A stretch of DNA of 49,920 nucleotides from Clostridia bacterium (GTDB lineage: Bacteria > Bacillota > Clostridia > Oscillospirales > Acutalibacteraceae): the NCBI GenBank assembly GCA_017625835.1, contig JAGAKF010000002.1, forward strand, positions 1-49,920, written 5' to 3'. Shown piece by piece: positions 19,551 to 42,651 of this stretch. Both the position numbers and the translations under genes were made by a program. The notes beneath the pieces are model-generated. The model made no database searches and had not been told where the DNA came from. It saw only the letters and a list, made by a program, of their open reading frames with translations. Numbering within the stretch: the first letter of the stretch is position 1; each line of letters opens with the position of its first letter.

Positions 19551-19576
19551 AAAAAATCCCTTTTCAGGGATTTTTT
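19551..19576 (-). terminator. Intrinsic terminator of the radical SAM operon
   Basis: The 10-bp stem AAAAAATCCC with GGGATTTTTT closes a 6-base loop just after the stop at 19578. It ends the five-gene operon. Confidence 0.88.
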
Positions 19577-19577
19577 A

Positions 19578-21392
19578 TCAAAGCTTGCGCTTATATTCGA
19601 GTCTGTAATTCTTGACATAATCCCTTCCGTACTTAGCAAGATACATAAGAAGGAAATCACTTTCGGTAAAAGTATGTGCCCACAGACGGTCTGCAGTATC
19701 CTCAAGAAACTTCTTCTCAAACGAATTTCTCTTGAATTTAACTTCTTCCATTGTCTGTGTGTCGGACTGATACTTATACGAAATATGCAACTGTCCGTTT
19801 TCGGTAAAATCATTGATTCCGACAGTCGATGCTTCATCCTTAAGAATTGCGTTTTTCTTAAGAGCAAAGTTAGACGGTGTGCAGGTATTTACAAGATCGT
19901 GGTCATAAATAACATCAATCGTAGACTGAAGCTCTTCGGGAGTTTCAGTCGGATAACACAAAAGGAATGTGCAAAGATTCCAGAGACCAGCACCTCTTGC
20001 GTCCGCAAGAATCTTCTTTCTGAAGTTAAGATCTACCCCTTTGTTTATGAGCTTCATAATACGTTCAGATTCCGCTTCATATCCCCACATAAAGAACCTC
20101 GCGCCTGAGTCGTAGAGATTTTTAAGAACCTCAGGAGTAAAAGCTTTTTCAAGCCTTGCAAAAGAATAATAATAAATTTCAAGTCCTCTTTTTATAACCT
20201 CTTTTGCAAATTCGTTGTAGAACTTCGGGGGTACAGCTTCATCAACAAAGGTAAACAGTTTACTGTTATATTTCTTTGAAAGGTACTCGACCTCGTCAAC
20301 GGCTCGTACAACCGACTTCATATCAAACTTCTGCTGTCCTGTATAAAAATCGCAGAATGTGCACTTTCCCCAGTAACAGCCTTTACCGAGCTGAACGGGA
20401 ATTACCGTTTCGGGAGAAAGATATTTAGAAAAATCGTATGAATCAAAATCGGGATACGAAACCTTATCAAGATTAAGAAGCGGTGCCTTTTCTGTCGCAT
20501 GCACAACACCGTTCTCATCGGCATAAACAAGCGAATGCACCTGATCAATTTCACGCTTACCGGCGATATATTCCGCAAGCTCAACGGTTGCTGTTTCGCC
20601 GTCACCTACCGAAAGATAGTCACAGTATTCAGAAAAAATCTGCGGTATTTTTCTCAGATCAGGCTCAACTTTGAAAATATAGTTGCCGCCGATGCCGATT
20701 TTGGCATTAGTATATTTTTTAAGCAGTCTCGCAAGTGTAAGACCCGGTACGAGCTGGCTTAAATCCGTTATTGAAAGACCGATAAAATCATAGGACGAAA
20801 AATCGGTCGTTTTCAGCTTTTCTTCAAAATACGGTAAGAACATATTGACATCGGCATTCTTGCACTGATAGTCAACATCCTTGAAATCATACGTAAACAC
20901 AGAGTTTGCAATGAAATTATCAAGCATTATTCTTGACGGAGCGAACGGAAGAGATGCTATATCAAGAGCTGAAAAAATTACGTCTTTAGCTTTAAAAAGC
21001 TTCTCGGCATCGTAGAAAAGCTCCTTGGTTTTAAGGACTTTCATTGAATACTCAAGCTCATCAACCGTCTTGCGGATATTGCCGCCGTCAAATTTAAAAT
21101 AATCCTCGATTATCTTTTTCCTTACCTGCGCGGTTTTGGTTCTTTTGGCATTTATATCGTCGCTGAAATCATCAGACTGAAGCATAACCTTTTCGTCTTC
21201 AGCAAACTTCTTTGCAGCATCAAGGCATTTTTCCATATATTCTTTTGTAAGGATATCGTTGAAAAACTCAACATTAAAATCATATGTTTCTGCCTGAAAA
21301 CCTGCGTTTTTAAGCTGACCTGCAAGTAAAGCACCCGCCAGATAAGGGCTGACAGGATACCACTGAGGTACTGAAGCAAAAAGAAATTTCAT
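19578..21392 (-). CDS. B12-binding-domain radical SAM protein A1 (CX4CX2C type)
   Basis: This is a 604-residue protein of the cobalamin-type radical SAM class. The N-terminal 250 residues start with VPQWYPVSPYLAGALLAG and end with GIGGNYIF and YLSVGDGE, which match the Rossmann-like cobalamin-binding region. The radical SAM cluster motif is GKGCYWGKCTFC with Cys339, Cys344 and Cys347: four residues, not three, separate the first two cysteines. A GWGYE-like SAM-binding stretch (FFMWGYEAESERI) and a long C-terminal region follow. It is the last gene of the operon, six bases after the glycosyltransferase, with AAGGAG upstream of the ATG. It is about the same length as A2 (613 residues) and clearly paralogous. 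Such proteins often methylate unactivated carbons, but the substrate here is unknown. Confidence 0.88.
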   Translation of the reverse strand: MKFLFASVPQWYPVSPYLAGALLAGQLKNAGFQAETYDFNVEFFNDILTKEYMEKCLDAAKKFAEDEKVMLQSDDFSDDINAKRTKTAQVRKKIIEDYFKFDGGNIRKTVDELEYSMKVLKTKELFYDAEKLFKAKDVIFSALDIASLPFAPSRIMLDNFIANSVFTYDFKDVDYQCKNADVNMFLPYFEEKLKTTDFSSYDFIGLSITDLSQLVPGLTLARLLKKYTNAKIGIGGNYIFKVEPDLRKIPQIFSEYCDYLSVGDGETATVELAEYIAGKREIDQVHSLVYADENGVVHATEKAPLLNLDKVSYPDFDSYDFSKYLSPETVIPVQLGKGCYWGKCTFCDFYTGQQKFDMKSVVRAVDEVEYLSKKYNSKLFTFVDEAVPPKFYNEFAKEVIKRGLEIYYYSFARLEKAFTPEVLKNLYDSGARFFMWGYEAESERIMKLINKGVDLNFRKKILADARGAGLWNLCTFLLCYPTETPEELQSTIDVIYDHDLVNTCTPSNFALKKNAILKDEASTVGINDFTENGQLHISYKYQSDTQTMEEVKFKRNSFEKKFLEDTADRLWAHTFTESDFLLMYLAKYGRDYVKNYRLEYKRKL

Positions 21393-21397
21393 TTTAC

Positions 21398-22126
21398 TTA
21401 CTCCTTTGTAAGTTTTGATTTTGGTGTAAAACGAACTCTGAGTGCAGTTTTAAGATAAAGAGCCGTCTGCTTTGCCGAATTTTTGGACTTACCCTGCTCT
21501 CTGCCAAAGCACTCAACGGCAAACTCTTCGAATTTATAGCCGCGGCGCAAAGGCACAACAACCATTTCAAGAAGGAACGGGAAATTAAGCTCCTGCCAGT
21601 CAGATTCTGAATACGCTTCTGACGGAGCAGTCTGCACGGGACTTGTAAAATCAGTAAGGTCTGACGAATAAAGAAACCGCAAAAACACCTGCGAAAGTTT
21701 ATTGATTATCTTCCTTATGCCGTTGTAGCCGTGAAAGCTGTCTTTTTTCAGCCATCTTGAAGTTTTGGATATTACGTCGGGTTTTTGTTTTACCCGTCGT
21801 ATCATTTCGGGTATACATTCAAGGCTTATCGCAAGGTCGCCCGGTAAGAGCATAATATGTGAAGATTCCGCGGCATCAAAACCATCACGTATAGCACCGC
21901 CGATATACGGCCGCGTCTGTTCCATTCCGCGAACTTTCAGAGGATACTTCGCTTCCAGCCCGCTGATTGTACGGTTGCAACCGTCGGATGCATTCTTCGG
22001 CTTTACCATAAGCACTTGTCCGATATCTTCGTTTTCACAGTTTTCCATGATAAAATCAACGGTTTTTCTTAAAGAATCCGTCTCATCGGTAGTGCCTATT
22101 ATAATTGTAACTGAAGTAAATTCCAT
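21398..22126 (-). CDS. Family-2-like glycosyltransferase within the radical SAM operon
   Basis: This is a 242-residue GT-A fold protein. The N-terminus SVTIIIGTTDETDSLRKTV matches the nucleotide-sugar binding start of GT2 enzymes. The next conserved block is GGAIRDGFDAAESSHIMLLPGDLAIS, in which LLPGD takes the place of the usual DAD/DXD metal motif. The C-terminus is basic (RVRFTPKSKLTKE) and there is no long hydrophobic helix. It would transfer a sugar to a lipid or small molecule at the cytoplasmic face; donor and acceptor are unknown. It lies between the two A-type radical SAM genes with short gaps, so it very likely belongs to the same pathway. The altered metal motif leaves room for a non-catalytic or nucleotidyltransferase-like role. 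Confidence 0.75.
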   Translation of the reverse strand: MEFTSVTIIIGTTDETDSLRKTVDFIMENCENEDIGQVLMVKPKNASDGCNRTISGLEAKYPLKVRGMEQTRPYIGGAIRDGFDAAESSHIMLLPGDLAISLECIPEMIRRVKQKPDVISKTSRWLKKDSFHGYNGIRKIINKLSQVFLRFLYSSDLTDFTSPVQTAPSEAYSESDWQELNFPFLLEMVVVPLRRGYKFEEFAVECFGREQGKSKNSAKQTALYLKTALRVRFTPKSKLTKE

Positions 22127-22136
22127 TAATTATCGC

Positions 22137-23978
22137 CTACCTGAATTCGGGACAAATCCGTTTTTCTGAACGGTATGATGAAACATAGTCACAGCCGTAT
22201 TTTGAAAGATATAAAAGCAAGTGGTCAAAATCTGAAAATACAACTGCCCAGAGCGAATTTGCATTTTCGTCAAGGAAAGAAAACTGGAAATCGCGTCTGA
22301 GTGTTCGTCTGTCCGCCTGAGAAACACCATCAATAACATCCTTGAAAACAGTGTAAAACTCACCGTTTGAAGAGTAATCAACAATTCCGTTTTCGCCAAG
22401 TGTCTCTTTGAGCAAAGAATGCTTTTTAAGGGCGAAATTTGAAAGCGTACAGCTTGGAATTATGTCTCTGTTGTTGCGGATAACTGCCATCGTTTCTTTT
22501 ATTTCATCGATAGTTTCAGTCGGATAGCCGAAAATAAACAAACCGTTATTCCAGATTCCCGCTTTTCTTGCATCACTGAGGATATCCAGACGTTTTTCAA
22601 CGTCGATTCCCTTATTCATCATCTCCATAATTCGGGGTGATTCACACTCATATCCCCAGAGGAAAAGACGGGCACCTGCACGGTAAAGATTTTCAAGAAC
22701 TTCGGGAGTATAGCCCGTTTCAAGACGGGCAAAGGAATAGAAATTGATTTTAAGCCCTGCTTCAATTATTGCCGTTGCAAGCAGATTGTAGAATTTGGGC
22801 GGTATCGCTTCATCAACAAACATAAATTTTGTTGCATGATATGTTTTAACGTAATGCTTGATTTCTTTAATGATTCTGCCGATGTGCTTCGGGCTGTAAC
22901 CCTGCTGACCGTATGCATAATCACAGAAATTGCACTTACCCCAGTAGCAGCCCTTTGACAGCTGAATCGTAAGCGTCGGGTCGGGAGAAAAATACTTTGA
23001 CATATCATAATCGGAAAAATCGGGATATGCCAAGTCGTCCATATCAATTTTCTCGCACGAAAATCCTGTTGTAACTACGCACCCTGCTTCATCCATATAC
23101 ACAATATTCGGAACTTCGGAAAACTCCGTAAGACCTTTGATATATGAACAAAGCTTCGGTAAAGCAATTTCACCGTCACCGATTACGAGATAATCAAAAT
23201 AAGAAATAAAAATCTCGTCAAACTTCATCATATCCTCGTAAATCTGAGTCGCATAATTACCGCCGAGGATAATCTTTGCTTCCGTTTTTTCTTTAAGCAT
23301 TGAGGCGAGAGTAAACACAGGGATAAGCTGACTCAGATCCGTCATCGCGATCGTAATGATACTGTATCCCTCTGCCTTGATTTTGTCTGTATACTCATCA
23401 AAATAGTCATAGAACATATTGACGTTCTTGTCCTGGGACTGAATTTTGATATTATTCCAGTCAAGATTGAGAAGAGGATTTGCAAAGTAGTTATCAAAAT
23501 CGATCTCGTTCGGCGCATACGGCATTGAAACAAGCCTTAATGCGAGACGTATTATATGCTTGGCTTCGCTTAACTTTTCAGGGATATAAAATTCTTCTTT
23601 ATCCCTGGTTACGTTGACTGCGTTTTCAATATTTTCGATAATATAAGGAACTTCTTTGCCGTAATCCTCATAAAACTTTTTAATGGTCAAGAATTTAAGA
23701 CAACGTGTTTTTTCGTCATAGCTTCCGTTTTTCTCAATTTCGGTAAAATCAGCATTTTCGAACTCGACAGAAAGCTTTTCGAGAATCTTTCTTGCTTCGC
23801 TGTCACAACGCGTTGCCATTTCTTTAGTAAGCAGGTAGTTAAAGAACTCTACGTTAAGATCGTATGATTTAACATCGAAACCTTCTTTTTTAAGCTGACC
23901 TGCCAACAGCGGCACTGCAAGATACGGTGAAACCGGGTACCATTGCGGCGGCTGTATCAGGAGTATGTCTGACATCAT
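22137..23978 (-). CDS. B12-binding-domain radical SAM protein A2 (CX4CX2C type)
   Basis: This is a 613-residue paralogue of A1. It begins DILLIQPPQWYPVSPYLAVP, followed by the same spaced elements: ITIAMTDLSQLIPVFTLAS, IILGGNYATQ, YLVIGDGEIALPKL. The cluster motif SKGCYWGKCNFC has Cys344, Cys349 and Cys352, again with four residues between the first two. FVDEAIPPKFYN and RLFLWGYECESPRIM match A1 closely. GGAGGAAT precedes two adjacent ATG codons (23978 and 23975); either may be used. The stop codon of B1 and this start touch, so the genes are translationally coupled. It probably shares a reaction type with A1 but acts at another position or step, an inference from the duplication. Confidence 0.88.
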   Translation of the reverse strand: MMSDILLIQPPQWYPVSPYLAVPLLAGQLKKEGFDVKSYDLNVEFFNYLLTKEMATRCDSEARKILEKLSVEFENADFTEIEKNGSYDEKTRCLKFLTIKKFYEDYGKEVPYIIENIENAVNVTRDKEEFYIPEKLSEAKHIIRLALRLVSMPYAPNEIDFDNYFANPLLNLDWNNIKIQSQDKNVNMFYDYFDEYTDKIKAEGYSIITIAMTDLSQLIPVFTLASMLKEKTEAKIILGGNYATQIYEDMMKFDEIFISYFDYLVIGDGEIALPKLCSYIKGLTEFSEVPNIVYMDEAGCVVTTGFSCEKIDMDDLAYPDFSDYDMSKYFSPDPTLTIQLSKGCYWGKCNFCDYAYGQQGYSPKHIGRIIKEIKHYVKTYHATKFMFVDEAIPPKFYNLLATAIIEAGLKINFYSFARLETGYTPEVLENLYRAGARLFLWGYECESPRIMEMMNKGIDVEKRLDILSDARKAGIWNNGLFIFGYPTETIDEIKETMAVIRNNRDIIPSCTLSNFALKKHSLLKETLGENGIVDYSSNGEFYTVFKDVIDGVSQADRRTLRRDFQFSFLDENANSLWAVVFSDFDHLLLYLSKYGCDYVSSYRSEKRICPEFR

Positions 23979-25898
23979 TTATTCCTCCGAGTACGTGATA
24001 ACCTCACGCGGGTTTACAAGAAGTGTTGCACTGTAACGTTTGCCGAACCATATAATCTCGCGGGCATACTCCGCCCAGGAAGAAATTTCCTTATGCGCTT
24101 TTATATGAAGCCTGCACTTTTTCCTGAGAAGCTCAGCATCAGCGTTTTCATTTACTGCTTCAAAATACTTGTAAAAATTATATTCTGATCTTATATCGAC
24201 TTCGCTCACATCGGGAAGCCGTACAAGTGTTTTCTGATAGTTAAATAATTCTTCAAAAAGATCTTTTTCTATTTCAAACTTTTCAAGGAAAGGTCTGATT
24301 TCGTCCCAGAATGTTTCACTGTGATAAACCATTTCAAGGAACGCGCCCTCTTCAAAATACCAGCCTGTTGTTCCGAAAAGATCGCGGTTGTACGTCCAGT
24401 CAGCAGTTTCTGTGTCCGCCTTTCTGTCGTAAAGAGATCTGAAGAAATCATTCAGGAAACCTTTATTTTCTTTGTATATAAACTCAAAAAGCTTGTTGTA
24501 GAAATCAAAATACGAAATATCTTTTTCCTTGTGAAGATAGATTGCGAAATATCTGACAAGGCCGAGATGATGGAAAGTCTGAAGTATAACAGAGAACATA
24601 CAGGCTCTGACCCAATCCGATTTCGGCATAGTTGCCGTTTCAGTAATAATATCAAAATATTCCGGCACTCCGTTAAACTCGGGATTATAGTGAATTCCCA
24701 GAAGCGGAATTCTTGAAGTTTTAATTCCGAATTTCTTCTGATATTCCGGGTTACCCATCGGCGCATTCGGATATACCTGGCACTCATACACGGTCATCGA
24801 ATTGTTCTGCCCCGAATCTAGAAGACGGCACATACCCTTGCAGAAACTGTCATAAGTTTCGCCGGGAAGACCGAGAATCAGCTCCGTATAAGTCGGAATA
24901 CCTGCTTCATCATATCTAGCATCGAGGTCAGAAAAATGTTCAAGTGTAAGATTCTTTCTGCCGATATTTTCAAGAGTTTTTTCATCGAGCGACTGATAAG
25001 CAAGTGTAACGCCCTTATCAGCGTGGTTTTTATTAAGAAGATATCCTGCTTTGAAAACCGTTTCATCACTTTCTTTTGCGTAACACGGTTTAAACACATC
25101 GGGATATCCATACTTTTTCTTCTGCTCAATTACATACTCGGCAATCTCAACATCCCTGTCCATTATGCCGAAGTTAGCATCTGCGCAATAACAGTACTTT
25201 ATCTTATTCTTTGCTATCCATTCAATCTCCTGTTTGATTTTCTCCATCGGGAACGGACGCAATTTTTTTGTAAAGCACCATTCACAATACGTGCAGCCGT
25301 ACGGACAGCCTCGGTTTGTTTCGAGTGTTGCGTGGAATTCCTTGTCAGGATTTTCTTTCATTATGTTATCAAAAATTCCGTCAATATAAGGAGACGGATA
25401 GGAAGAAAGATCACAAGGATTCTGCTGTTGTGTTGTAACGTTTCCGTCAGGGGTTCTGAATGATAAATTCGGAACATTTTCCAGACTTTCGTTATCAGCT
25501 AAAGCTTTTAAAAACTTAGCAGTTGTTTCCTCTCCTTCGTTGTGCATAAGGTAATCAACGAACGGGTACTCTTCAAGAAAACTGCTGTCGTGAGGCACAC
25601 TGTGTCCGCCGAAAATAATTCTGACGTTTGGAAACTTTTTCTTCAATTCAACTGCAAGAGTTTTGTTGTATTCAAGGTTCCAGGTAAAGCAGGAAAAAGC
25701 GACAAATGACGGATTTTCAAAACGTTTCAATACATCGTCAATTTTTTCGCGCATTACGATTATATCGGGAATATCATAGTGCTTCATAATCTCTTCGTCG
25801 CGTTTGAGATATGCCGCGATACAACCGACAGAATAAGGCAGGAATACCGGTGATGAATATGATACACCGATCTGCACAAGATAGAACTTTTCTTTCAC
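23979..25898 (-). CDS. B12-binding-domain radical SAM protein B1 (CX3CX2C type)
   Basis: This protein has 639 residues from a GTG at 25898, which has AAGGGGAG seven bases upstream. An in-frame ATG at 25940 overlaps B2 and gives a longer, less family-like start. The N-terminal cobalamin-type domain shows LVQIGVSYSSPVFLPYSVG and RIIFGGHSVPHD, with LMHNEGEET. The radical SAM motif NRGCPYGCTYCEW has Cys198, Cys202 and Cys205. After it come CYCADANFGIMDRDVEIA, AYQSLDEKTLENIGRKN and TELILGLPGETYDSF, typical of B12-radical SAM proteins. The C-terminal 200 residues are unassigned. It is a tandem paralogue of B2 with the same length. The substrate is unknown. Confidence 0.88.
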   Translation of the reverse strand: MKEKFYLVQIGVSYSSPVFLPYSVGCIAAYLKRDEEIMKHYDIPDIIVMREKIDDVLKRFENPSFVAFSCFTWNLEYNKTLAVELKKKFPNVRIIFGGHSVPHDSSFLEEYPFVDYLMHNEGEETTAKFLKALADNESLENVPNLSFRTPDGNVTTQQQNPCDLSSYPSPYIDGIFDNIMKENPDKEFHATLETNRGCPYGCTYCEWCFTKKLRPFPMEKIKQEIEWIAKNKIKYCYCADANFGIMDRDVEIAEYVIEQKKKYGYPDVFKPCYAKESDETVFKAGYLLNKNHADKGVTLAYQSLDEKTLENIGRKNLTLEHFSDLDARYDEAGIPTYTELILGLPGETYDSFCKGMCRLLDSGQNNSMTVYECQVYPNAPMGNPEYQKKFGIKTSRIPLLGIHYNPEFNGVPEYFDIITETATMPKSDWVRACMFSVILQTFHHLGLVRYFAIYLHKEKDISYFDFYNKLFEFIYKENKGFLNDFFRSLYDRKADTETADWTYNRDLFGTTGWYFEEGAFLEMVYHSETFWDEIRPFLEKFEIEKDLFEELFNYQKTLVRLPDVSEVDIRSEYNFYKYFEAVNENADAELLRKKCRLHIKAHKEISSWAEYAREIIWFGKRYSATLLVNPREVITYSEE

Positions 25899-25920
25899 AC
25901 CGCTACTCCCCTTTCTTAGG

Positions 25921-27840
25921 CTAAACTTCTTTGATATCATCCTTGTAAGATGACCAGCCCATTCTTCCGTACCAGATTACAAACTTTCCGAATTCAGGCC
26001 AGTTCGTAACAGGATTGCTGTCACACATTACAAGAGTGTGTTCTTTTTTCTCAAGCGGATGAATGTTATTTACATAAACATCTTTGAGATAGTTATGAAT
26101 ATCATACTTAAGGCTTACCGTTTTTTCTTTGTCAAACGGTGTGCGGATGATATTCTTCTGATACTTCAACAAATCCACGAAGATATCTTCGGGTATCTTA
26201 TAGCTTTCAAGATACGGCACAATCTCTTCGTAAAACCTGTCAAGCTGAGATATTGCATTAAGAACAACATACTCGTGGTCATCCCAGACAATTTCACCGC
26301 AGGGATCAAACAGAAGCTTTCTGTTTGTTATGCCAAGCGAAAGCTCATCTGCGTGACGCTTAATATCAAAATACAGCTTTGAAATGAATAAATCGGGATT
26401 CTTTTCGAAATAATCAAGTGCACCGTCATAGAATTTTTCATAGGGAACTCCCATCTCGTTATGAAGGTAAATTCCGAATGCACGGATTAGTCCGTTTCCG
26501 TGAAGTGCCTTTGCCATATAGTAAAACGTCGTTGCTCTGACCCACATTTCACGGCTCATTGAATTTGTTTCAACAACAATGTTGTTGTATTCGGGAACAC
26601 TGAAAGCTTCGTTATTGAAATGCGGACGGATGATTTCCGAGCGTACGGTTCTGATTCCGAACTTTTCCACATAGTCCTTCTGGCCCATAGTTGCATTCGG
26701 AAGAAGAATACATCCGTAAACTTCGAAAACAAAGTGCTGCCCGATTTCAAAAAGCTTACCTACACCTTCGATAAAGCTTTCGTAAGTCTCACCCGGAAGA
26801 CCGAGAATAAGTTCCGAATATGTCTTCATATTCGCCTTGTTGTAGGTTGTAAGAAGATTCTTATAAAAATCGAGCGAAGTATTTTTTCTGCCGATGTTTT
26901 TAAGAACTTCGGGAGACATACTCTGGAAAGAAAGCGTTGCACCGATTCTGTCGAATTCGCAACGTTTGAACACTTTGACAATTTCAAAAACATTTTCGAA
27001 ATTGTTCTTGGCGTAGTTCATTCGCATTCTTTCGGGATATCCTGTTTCTTCCTTGACTCTTGCAAGCTCATTTGCAATTTCAAGGTCGCGTTTGAACATT
27101 CCGAAGTTTGCATCGGCTCCCCACACGAATGCTATTTTATGATCAGACATCCAGCGGATTTCAGCCCTTACTCTTTCGATCGGGAAAAGGCGCGTCTTTG
27201 CTTTAAGCAAACCCCAGTCGCAGTACGCACACTGATTCGGGCAACCGCGGCTCGTTTCAAGAATTGCATTGAATGTTATCTCGGGATGCGCTTCAACTAT
27301 TGGATCAAACCAGCCTTCAAGATACGGTGAAGGATAATCGAGAGTTGACTGAAGTTTTGTTTGTGTTCTTGTAAAACCGCTATCAGGATTTCTGAAAGAA
27401 ATGTTACATACACCGTCAAACGGCTTGTCCTGTGAATATGCTTCCAGCAGTTCACGAACAGTATCCTCTCCTTCGCCGTGACACAGTACATCTATAAAAT
27501 CATATTCTTCGAGAAATGAAAAATTATCGGGTATATCGTGGCCGCCGAAAACCGTAAGGCAATCGGGATATTTTTCCTTTACTTTTTTCGCAAGAAGCTT
27601 GTTATATTCGGTGCTCCAACAATAATTCGAAAAACCGATAAAAGACGGATTGTCAAGTCTTTCAACAACCTCATTCACATCTTCACGCAAAAAGACAAAG
27701 TCCTTGAACTGACAGTTCGACTTTACAATATCGCTTGTAAATGCAGACGCTGCAAGGATACCTGCCGTATACGGCAAGTACGCATTCTGTGTTCCTGAGC
27801 TGGCCGAAACATCAACCTGGACAAAGTATACATTCTTCAT
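25921..27840 (-). CDS. B12-binding-domain radical SAM protein B2 (CX3CX2C type), first gene of operon
   Basis: This protein has 639 residues from the ATG at 27840, with GGAGGTAGTGCAG upstream; the longer in-frame start at 27873 would overlap the promoter. It begins YFVQVDVSASSGTQNAYLPY and contains TVFGGHDIPDN and VLCHGEGEDTVREL in the cobalamin-type domain. The cluster motif SRGCPNQCAYCDW has Cys200, Cys204 and Cys207. WGADANFGMFKRDLEIAN, LSFQSMSPEVLKNIGRKN and SELILGLPGETYESF follow, as in B1. It lies directly behind a consensus promoter with an embedded palindrome and its stop lies 22 bases before the B1 start. Its product is probably a methyltransferase or another B12-dependent radical enzyme; nothing in the sequence names the substrate. 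Confidence 0.88.
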   Translation of the reverse strand: MKNVYFVQVDVSASSGTQNAYLPYTAGILAASAFTSDIVKSNCQFKDFVFLREDVNEVVERLDNPSFIGFSNYCWSTEYNKLLAKKVKEKYPDCLTVFGGHDIPDNFSFLEEYDFIDVLCHGEGEDTVRELLEAYSQDKPFDGVCNISFRNPDSGFTRTQTKLQSTLDYPSPYLEGWFDPIVEAHPEITFNAILETSRGCPNQCAYCDWGLLKAKTRLFPIERVRAEIRWMSDHKIAFVWGADANFGMFKRDLEIANELARVKEETGYPERMRMNYAKNNFENVFEIVKVFKRCEFDRIGATLSFQSMSPEVLKNIGRKNTSLDFYKNLLTTYNKANMKTYSELILGLPGETYESFIEGVGKLFEIGQHFVFEVYGCILLPNATMGQKDYVEKFGIRTVRSEIIRPHFNNEAFSVPEYNNIVVETNSMSREMWVRATTFYYMAKALHGNGLIRAFGIYLHNEMGVPYEKFYDGALDYFEKNPDLFISKLYFDIKRHADELSLGITNRKLLFDPCGEIVWDDHEYVVLNAISQLDRFYEEIVPYLESYKIPEDIFVDLLKYQKNIIRTPFDKEKTVSLKYDIHNYLKDVYVNNIHPLEKKEHTLVMCDSNPVTNWPEFGKFVIWYGRMGWSSYKDDIKEV

Positions 27841-27876
27841 CTGCACTACCTCCAAACCTGCATAATAAATCAACCT

Positions 27877-27905
27877 ATTATATCACCGCGGTATATTGTT
27901 GTCAA
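27877..27905 (-). promoter_or_regulatory. Consensus sigma-A promoter of the radical SAM operon with palindrome in the spacer
   Basis: TTGACA (27900-27905) and TATAAT (27877-27882) on the minus strand have a 17-base spacer, all consensus. The 8-bp perfect palindrome ACCGCGGT (27885-27892) sits between them and is a possible operator. Confidence 0.88.
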
Positions 27906-41361: not shown

Positions 41362-42651
41362 TTATTTACTCCAGCCTGCAATAAGCTCATTAAGACACTC
41401 ATCATAGATTGAATAAAATTTATTTACAATTTCCTTATCCTTCTCGTTACCTCTTACACCCATAGCAAGAATACAGTCTTCTTTATAAGTGATAGCAGAA
41501 AGAAGAACAAACGGCTTGTACTTTACGGCACCGCTCATAAAGCCGTAAATCGGCTCGTGTCCGCAGATTGATGTTCCGACGGGATCAATAAAACCGATAT
41601 TACTCATTGCAAGATGCGGGTTTGCATAACCGATTTTAACTGCAAGCTCACCGATAACATGCGGAAGAGTATAGCCGAAGTTAAGAAGCGGAAGACCGTA
41701 CATACCCATAAACTTGTCCTGCTTGAACTTATTTGTACTTTCAGCAACAAGTCTGAGTGTTTCAAAAATATCCTTACCGAGGTGAGGAATGTTGCACTGC
41801 ATCCAGGCTGTGTGGTTCGTAAGTCCTACACCTTCCATATTCTTGATGTATCTTCTCAGGTCAATCGCACCTGCAATTGTGAGACTGTCGTTCTTATCAA
41901 AATTTGCAAGGCGGTATACGCTTTCATAATATGCCGCCATAAGGATGTCGTTGAGCGTAAATCCGTTTTTCTTGCCGAGTGCTTTTACCGTTTTGAAAGC
42001 ATCTCTGTCAAGATTATGCTTAGCCATAAATGATTTATCCTCGGGCTTGCTTTCAGTCAACGGGAACTTGTGCGGATCCTTGACAGACGGGTTTCTGATA
42101 AGCTTCTTTGCAGCCTTTCTGTCCTCTTCCGTAAGATCACGATAAATCATCTTATGTGATCTTGAACCGACACGGATATCATTAGGCATCTTGCCTGTTT
42201 CAACAAAAGTCGTATAATCTCTGCAAAACTTTGTTGTAATATACTTTGTATCGCCGCCATCAAAACACATATGGTTTGAAACGAAGCAGAATGCTGTCTT
42301 ACCATCAAAGTAGAATAAACCTACACGGAACTGGATTTTATCCTCCGGGTTAATTTCCTGCATAAGGAACTTTTCAATTTCAGCCTCTTTTTCAGCCTCT
42401 GCAATATGTTTGATTGTGACCGCATCATCGACATTATACGGATTTACTCTCCAGTACGGTCTTATGTAATTATTCACAAAAGATGAATGAAGAACAGGTG
42501 CTTTTTCAAAAAGATTTGAAACAAATTTCTTGACTATTTCAGCATCAAGCTCAAAATCATAATGCAATTCAACATGGATAACTCTGTCATTATATGTCCT
42601 GAAAAGATAATGCAGTTTATCCCACATTTCAGCTTTTACTCTGGGTGCCAT
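41362..42651 (-). CDS. Stand-alone condensation-domain-like acyltransferase
   Basis: This is a 429-residue protein of the condensation/alcohol acetyltransferase superfamily (COG4908-like). The catalytic HxxxDG motif appears as HMCFDGG with His127 and Asp131. Further family features are the start VHYDFELD-like block near residue 30, TIAGAIDLRRYI, GLTNHTAWMQ, and the late AMSNIGFIDPVG that matches the conserved region near the second active-site half. There is no carrier protein or adenylation domain beside it, so it is not an NRPS module. It probably transfers an acyl group between coenzyme A or a carrier and an alcohol or amine, perhaps a lipid. AGGAGGT precedes the ATG at 42651, and it has its own promoter and terminator. 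Confidence 0.85.
   Translation of the reverse strand: MAPRVKAEMWDKLHYLFRTYNDRVIHVELHYDFELDAEIVKKFVSNLFEKAPVLHSSFVNNYIRPYWRVNPYNVDDAVTIKHIAEAEKEAEIEKFLMQEINPEDKIQFRVGLFYFDGKTAFCFVSNHMCFDGGDTKYITTKFCRDYTTFVETGKMPNDIRVGSRSHKMIYRDLTEEDRKAAKKLIRNPSVKDPHKFPLTESKPEDKSFMAKHNLDRDAFKTVKALGKKNGFTLNDILMAAYYESVYRLANFDKNDSLTIAGAIDLRRYIKNMEGVGLTNHTAWMQCNIPHLGKDIFETLRLVAESTNKFKQDKFMGMYGLPLLNFGYTLPHVIGELAVKIGYANPHLAMSNIGFIDPVGTSICGHEPIYGFMSGAVKYKPFVLLSAITYKEDCILAMGVRGNEKDKEIVNKFYSIYDECLNELIAGWSK

Follow-up and report, generated by a model that had tools for sequence, protein, structure and literature searches.

A five-gene operon of cobalamin-type radical SAM proteins and a GT2-like protein in a Clostridia bacterium, with a possible role in an unusual surface sugar or glycan

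We describe an operon that encodes four cobalamin-type radical S-adenosylmethionine (SAM) proteins and one GT2-like protein in a stretch of 49,920 nucleotides of DNA from a Clostridia bacterium of the Acutalibacteraceae (contig JAGAKF010000002.1; henceforth the window). It comprises five open reading frames (ORFs) on the minus strand, 19578–27840, which we call, in order of transcription, B_up, B_dn, A_up, GT and A_dn. We propose, tentatively and at a little under an even chance, that the operon supplies the radical chemistry for making an unusual sugar or glycan of the cell surface. The enzyme classes are well supported; the substrate and the product we infer. Each named protein comes from a known superfamily, and what is new is their combination, their copy number and the GT partner that lacks a canonical DXD motif. 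A preliminary description of this DNA knew of no described system with this layout, and the literature searched, in which subscription journals were thinly covered, likewise gave no recognisable description of the cluster.

What reactions might the two B proteins catalyse? B_up (25921–27840, minus strand) has 639 residues from an ATG at 27840 that is preceded by GGAGGT. B_dn (23979–25940, minus strand) has 653 residues from its first ATG, or 639 from a GTG at codon 15. B_up aligns with residues 20–593 of the 681 of TokK (E = 2.7e-100) and B_dn with residues 19–591 (E = 1.7e-87). These matches span the cobalamin, radical SAM and C-terminal parts, and CysS is matched as well. The CX3CX2C motif is present in both proteins and, by pattern, in 171 of 175 distinct B relatives; the tryptophan beneath the cobalt (Trp76 of TokK, Trp75 of CysS) is found in 173 of the 175, including both window copies. 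Given this near-full-length kinship, the motif and the tryptophan, B_up and B_dn are most likely radical C-methylases of the TokK/CysS type, strongly predicted from their sequences to methylate unactivated carbons with methylcobalamin as the methyl donor. They nevertheless stand apart from the known TokK/ThnK/CysS/KedN5-type enzymes. Their scores against NF033712 (KedN5), 242.4 and 238.6 bits, lie below the curated cutoff of 700; their clusters hold several B copies alongside a GT2-like gene; and no carbapenem, cystobactamid or enediyne genes were recognised among the scanned neighbours. The two proteins are 39% identical and are not mutual nearest relatives, their split in the tree being older than the genus. 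Both also match the candidate anti-phage defence model PDC-M51A weakly (78 and 84 bits), which we took to be generic radical SAM similarity.

The A proteins, A_up (22137–23978, minus strand, 613 residues) and A_dn (19578–21392, minus strand, 604 residues), are 45% identical and also diverged before the genus arose, so that the two paralogous pairs of the preliminary description stand. Their top NCBIfam match is TIGR03975, at 137.8 bits for A_up and 123.9 bits for A_dn, below the curated cutoff of 281.85. According to the available text of PMC12846815, a CX3CX2C spacing is overwhelmingly common among radical SAM enzymes without being strictly defining. The A pair does not have this spacing. Instead CX4CX2C is found by pattern in 101 of 104 A proteins, and the three cysteines are aligned and invariant in all 104. 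The structure model of A_dn (pLDDT 93) has an N-terminal Rossmann cobalamin domain and a radical SAM barrel, with structural matches to the class-1 cobalamin radical SAM fold; its N-terminal domain is interrupted by a stretch of about 150 residues that is mostly helical, as read from the secondary structure of the model. This predicted fold is shared with OxsB, AprD4, TsrM and MgmA, from which the A proteins differ in the CX4CX2C motif, in the helical interruption and in having leucine in place of the TokK tryptophan (37 of 41 A relatives from such clusters); identity is 14–17%. We conclude that the A pair is a separate CX4CX2C family with a predicted class-1 fold, for A_dn by the model and for A_up by its 45% identity. 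Its reaction could be a methylation or a carbon rearrangement or dehydration like those of AprD4 and OxsB. Four enzymes of this kind are expected to make several similar modifications, as had been suggested; but the pairs are different kinds of enzyme, and A is not necessarily a methylase.

Elsewhere the A family occurs in Gastranaerophilales, Nitrospinae, Planctomycetes and others, away from the metagenome-assembled genomes (MAGs) of Ruminococcaceae type, with other neighbours that give no clue to its reaction. (Here and below, G, L and C numbers denote genomes of relatives, fetched loci and contigs of the window's own genome.) In six Gastranaerophilales loci (L079, L080, L083, L084, L086, L130) a conserved protein of 113–129 residues with a shared LIGTNIN stretch directly follows the A gene; it could be a partner or substrate of the A protein there. 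In Nitrospinae-type MAGs the A gene is followed in constant order by proteins of about 356–377 and 460 residues, often with one of about 340–370 residues too (sequences for L095, L098 and L121; ORF lengths only for L099, L103, L107, L117, L118 and L125). A further pair couples a weakly A-like radical SAM gene encoding some 497 residues with a neighbour of about 375–393, and is seen at L165:7595-10269 and L076:1796-4427. It occurs in the window's own genome (C36) and near the core cluster in L076, the counterparts being 62% and 67% identical.

Between the A genes lies GT (21398–22126, minus strand, 242 residues). It passes the PF00535 cutoff of 23.3 with 25.1 bits. Its model (pLDDT 90) has a GT-A fold that matches dolichyl-phosphate mannose synthase (DPMS; TMq 0.80) and ArnC (TMq up to 0.74), and its profile finds 5mlz at E = 2.1e-14, although the 5mlz chain has 355 residues. 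In contrast to DPMS and ArnC, GT lacks the DXD motif: the first aspartate is absent in 49 of 50 distinct GT relatives, while the other is kept in all 50. Nor is the Asp-rich nucleotide loop of DPMS retained. His90, Asp97 and Glu187 are conserved in 50 of 50 relatives, and Ser123, Arg124, Asp159 and Arg209 in 42–48. GT could be a transferase that needs no metal, or a binding protein. The glycosylation that had been anticipated is not secure because the canonical DXD is missing, even though GT folds like the polyprenyl-phosphate sugar transferases. A search for plasmid carriage of GT gave no match.

The five genes are separated by −20, 0, 10 and 5 bases in order of transcription, and are preceded by a sigma-70-type promoter, TTGACA-N17-TATAAT with an extended TG (27877–27905, minus strand), that matches at 12 of 12 positions. 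No other of the 41 sites listed by the promoter scan does so (shuffles average 27.4 sites), and the arrangement is kept in G004. The single-strand operon with one consensus promoter is thus as first described. The terminator is less certain: a stem-loop followed by a T run is visible in the sequence (19551–19576, minus strand) but is missing from the 16 terminators listed by the scan. Free stretches of 136 and 93 bases flank the operon. Apart from the start of B_up, the ORFs of at least 20 residues on the operon's strand that extend into these stretches are of 53 and 23 residues upstream, overlapping the end of a CitMHS gene, and of 47 and 108 residues downstream, where they overlap A_dn and the gene that comes next. 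No candidate for the precursor of a ribosomally synthesized and post-translationally modified peptide (RiPP) was seen by eye among the short same-strand ORFs beside the operon, no precursor model having been run, and in this the earlier account is borne out. No cobalamin riboswitch or other Rfam RNA reached its gathering score in the window, L048, L207, L051 or L056. A comparison of the window with G004 shows purifying selection on all five genes, with ratios of non-synonymous to synonymous substitution rates (dN/dS) of 0.040–0.066, close to those of the neighbours malQ (0.043) and hprK (0.032); the values are rough because dS is near saturation. A lone condensation-domain protein of 429 residues (41362–42651) lies some 13.5 kb from the operon, with other genes between.

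How faithfully do these genes travel together? In the genus, close A matches (E <1e-200) occur in 5 of 18 genomes, the window's included, and in 11 of the 18 at 0.001. In a sample of 300 genomes of the family A is present in 11, GT in 28, B in 33 and an HddA-like kinase in 22 (thresholds 1e-40, 1e-12, 1e-60 and 1e-40). All 28 GT genomes hold B (Fisher p 1e-34, uncorrected for kinship). We also counted 48 loci in which GT was called as an ORF, 22 of them fetched for A, 25 for GT hits and one (L200) for B hits. B occurs in 46, in 32 of them within 300 bases, and A in 22, exactly those chosen for A. The counts cover only such loci; several GT places were unfetched, many loci stop at contig ends, and L050 and L066 are one and the same contig region. 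Four loci with GT by search (L055, L185, L191 and L198) are omitted; B is present in the first three and none was called in L198, which gives 49 of 52. Since 28 of 28 GT genomes and 46 of 48 GT loci hold B, the stable unit is GT plus B, with A an optional addition.

The order B_up–B_dn–A_up–GT–A_dn is found again in G013, G004, G010, G012, G199 and L067, a roe-deer MAG, and in G103 once the GT search is added; a gene-order search at 1e-60 returned the own genome alone (1 of 394). In other relatives members of the cluster have been lost, swapped or added, and many have GT and B without A. The expectation that the five genes stay together therefore holds for GT with B; A is often absent, extra genes occur and the order varies, so that the frequent separation named beforehand as grounds for refutation is in part what we find. 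Trees show A_up and A_dn and several B lineages to be old paralogues retained side by side. Some loci are rich in radical SAM genes: L067 has five B, two A and three of a third type, and L071 six B, two A and one of the third type. In L078, a Ruminococcaceae MAG, one GT is accompanied by upper counts of seven B, two A and two further cobalamin-type radical SAM ORFs, some of which may be gene pieces. Among the named relatives are several MAGs from the gut of cattle, goat, roe deer and water buffalo. Absences in the window's genome are weak evidence because that genome is 77% complete.

What might the substrate be? Named neighbours point more toward sugar-nucleotide genes than toward lipid genes. 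A sugar gene is present in 17 of the 48 GT loci, 12 with a short-chain dehydrogenase/reductase (SDR), HddA-like kinase, GmhA-like isomerase or cupin and five with an FKP-like kinase. Contig C65 of the window's own genome carries an HddA-like kinase, a fused protein matching GmhB and sugar nucleotidyltransferases, and a member of a membrane protein family that we call F5. The kinase and the fusion, also seen in relatives' loci, recall the GDP-D-glycero-D-manno-heptose pathway (HddA, HddC, GmhA, GmhB), and G199 and G089 add the GmhA-like isomerase. The likeness is incomplete: the HddA-like kinase scores 132 bits (cutoff 600) and the GmhA-like protein 152 (cutoff 209), and the cassette is separable from the operon. 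Kinase and B share one fetched locus in other genera and, among the window's closer kin of the same genus, in G001, for which neither GT nor A was called.

Two further elements may belong with the operon. Contig C96 of the same genome carries a second operon, of three B genes. One of these groups with the B genes of G199 and G089 at support 100/98, the others only in wider clades (94/92; 99/98). Because related B genes adjoin the core cluster in G199 and G089, the two operons may work together. F5 is a family of polytopic-looking proteins of about 400 residues present in 17 of the 48 GT loci (examples are L191:12913-17953, L146:3869-11610, L201:8481-9629, L207:7099-8415 and L163:9369-10568). 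Three or four copies are sometimes clustered, and a second membrane protein, for which no Pfam family was found, often comes next; another F5 lies on the own contig C69. In one locus (G205) a UbiA-family prenyltransferase lies two genes away from F5. In L181 (297-2075) a UbiA-family prenyltransferase and an SDR adjoin F5 and four B genes, an arrangement that hints at a polyprenyl-linked sugar.

With moderate confidence, we infer a sugar or a lipid-linked sugar as the substrate. The GT-like protein would bind or make a polyprenyl-phosphate-linked sugar, on which, or on whose nucleotide precursor, the radical SAM proteins would act in succession, with B_up and B_dn using methylcobalamin to methylate unactivated carbons. 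The B genes of C96 and the heptose-type sugar-nucleotide cassette of C65 with its F5 may contribute, a part of the scheme held with moderate to weak confidence. The product would then be exported into the cell envelope or its glycans; surface display is a weak suggestion. That a radical SAM enzyme can C-methylate a sugar has a precedent in GenK of gentamicin biosynthesis, likened here by its description and not by sequence. The GenK pathway is an antibiotic pathway of actinomycetes. In a bolder form of the proposal, which we think somewhat unlikely, the DXD-less DPMS-like protein presents a polyprenyl-phosphate- or nucleotide-linked sugar of heptose type to between four and about ten cobalamin-type radical SAM proteins acting in relay, and stepwise C-methylation and rearrangement give branched-carbon surface sugars, a pathway type so far undescribed in gut Clostridia.

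Several observations weigh against a sugar or glycan module. TokK and CysS act, by the titles of their structure entries, on pantetheinylated small molecules and not on sugars. GT has lost the first DXD aspartate and the nucleotide loop of DPMS, and the Pfam B12-binding score is under its cutoff in three of the four radical SAM proteins. No sugar gene is seen in 31 of the 48 GT loci. Within the genus of the window, operon and cassette are on different contigs, and G003 and G005 hold the cassette without close A or B matches; in the family sample B is missing from 4 of 22 kinase genomes, and the kinase from 15 of the 33 genomes with B. F5 has no recognised kin: Pfam (two members) and NCBIfam (one member) gave nothing, a PDB profile search was unconvincing, and 18 members returned stray matches alone, all above E 0.02. 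Finally, a carotenoid-desaturase-like oxidoreductase is present at five of the 48 loci, at four of them with a 2Fe-2S protein and at one with an SDR.

Which other explanations would account for the operon? Given that the substrates of TokK and CysS are pantetheinylated small molecules, the leading alternative is a diffusible natural product, whose scaffold would come from elsewhere on pantetheine or a carrier protein, undergo iterative radical methylation as with TokK and CysS, and be glycosylated by GT. The resemblance of B to these two enzymes, which covers the radical SAM portion and much of the C-terminal one, favours it, as do the patchy spread of A and GT and the variable gene content, typical of such clusters, and the condensation-domain gene of the window. 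That gene is, however, cut off from the operon by others, no non-ribosomal peptide synthetase, polyketide synthase or carrier gene was recognised in 48 scanned neighbour proteins (a selection), and it is sugar-nucleotide genes that recur next to the clusters; we regard this explanation as unlikely. Quite improbable, in our view, is a modified membrane lipid or polyprenol, with the radical SAM proteins methylating, desaturating or cross-linking chains and GT adding a head group. The polyprenyl-phosphate transferase fold of GT and the desaturase-like proteins would suit it, and all four radical SAM proteins have matches to the hopanoid models HpnR and HpnJ. The scores are only 26–68 bits against cutoffs of 650 and 578, and the window's operon has no desaturase-like gene, nor was one found in 43 of the 48 loci. 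The preliminary description had proposed a small-molecule or lipid pathway; the nameable neighbours suggest sugar-nucleotide over lipid genes.

A doubtful but possible variant, compatible with the sugar or glycan module, is that GT is not an enzyme and instead binds a sugar linked to a lipid or a nucleotide and presents it to the radical SAM proteins. The selective loss of one DXD aspartate, the tie of GT to B, stricter than to A or the cassette, and the constraint on the gene (dN/dS 0.066) would agree with a partner of this kind, but the conserved residues listed above fit an active site, and some GT-A enzymes are active without DXD. Maturation of a RiPP, in which the A pair would modify a peptide as TIGR03975 proteins do, we rejected as highly improbable: TIGR03975 is the best NCBIfam match of both A proteins, and six Gastranaerophilales loci have a conserved small protein after the A gene, yet both scores (138 and 124 bits against 282) are sub-cutoff and no precursor candidate was seen by eye in or beside the operon.

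TokK, CysS, TsrM and MgmA, whose structures have been solved, act in antibiotic pathways or in the modification of proteins; in the present case one bacterial family keeps several copies of such proteins beside a single GT2-like gene. Should the substrate be a sugar or a lipid-linked sugar, the operon would represent a route by radical chemistry to carbon-branched glycans in gut bacteria, one with its own demand for vitamin B12, and the KedN5/TokK-like proteins of these Clostridia would gain a role that can be tested.
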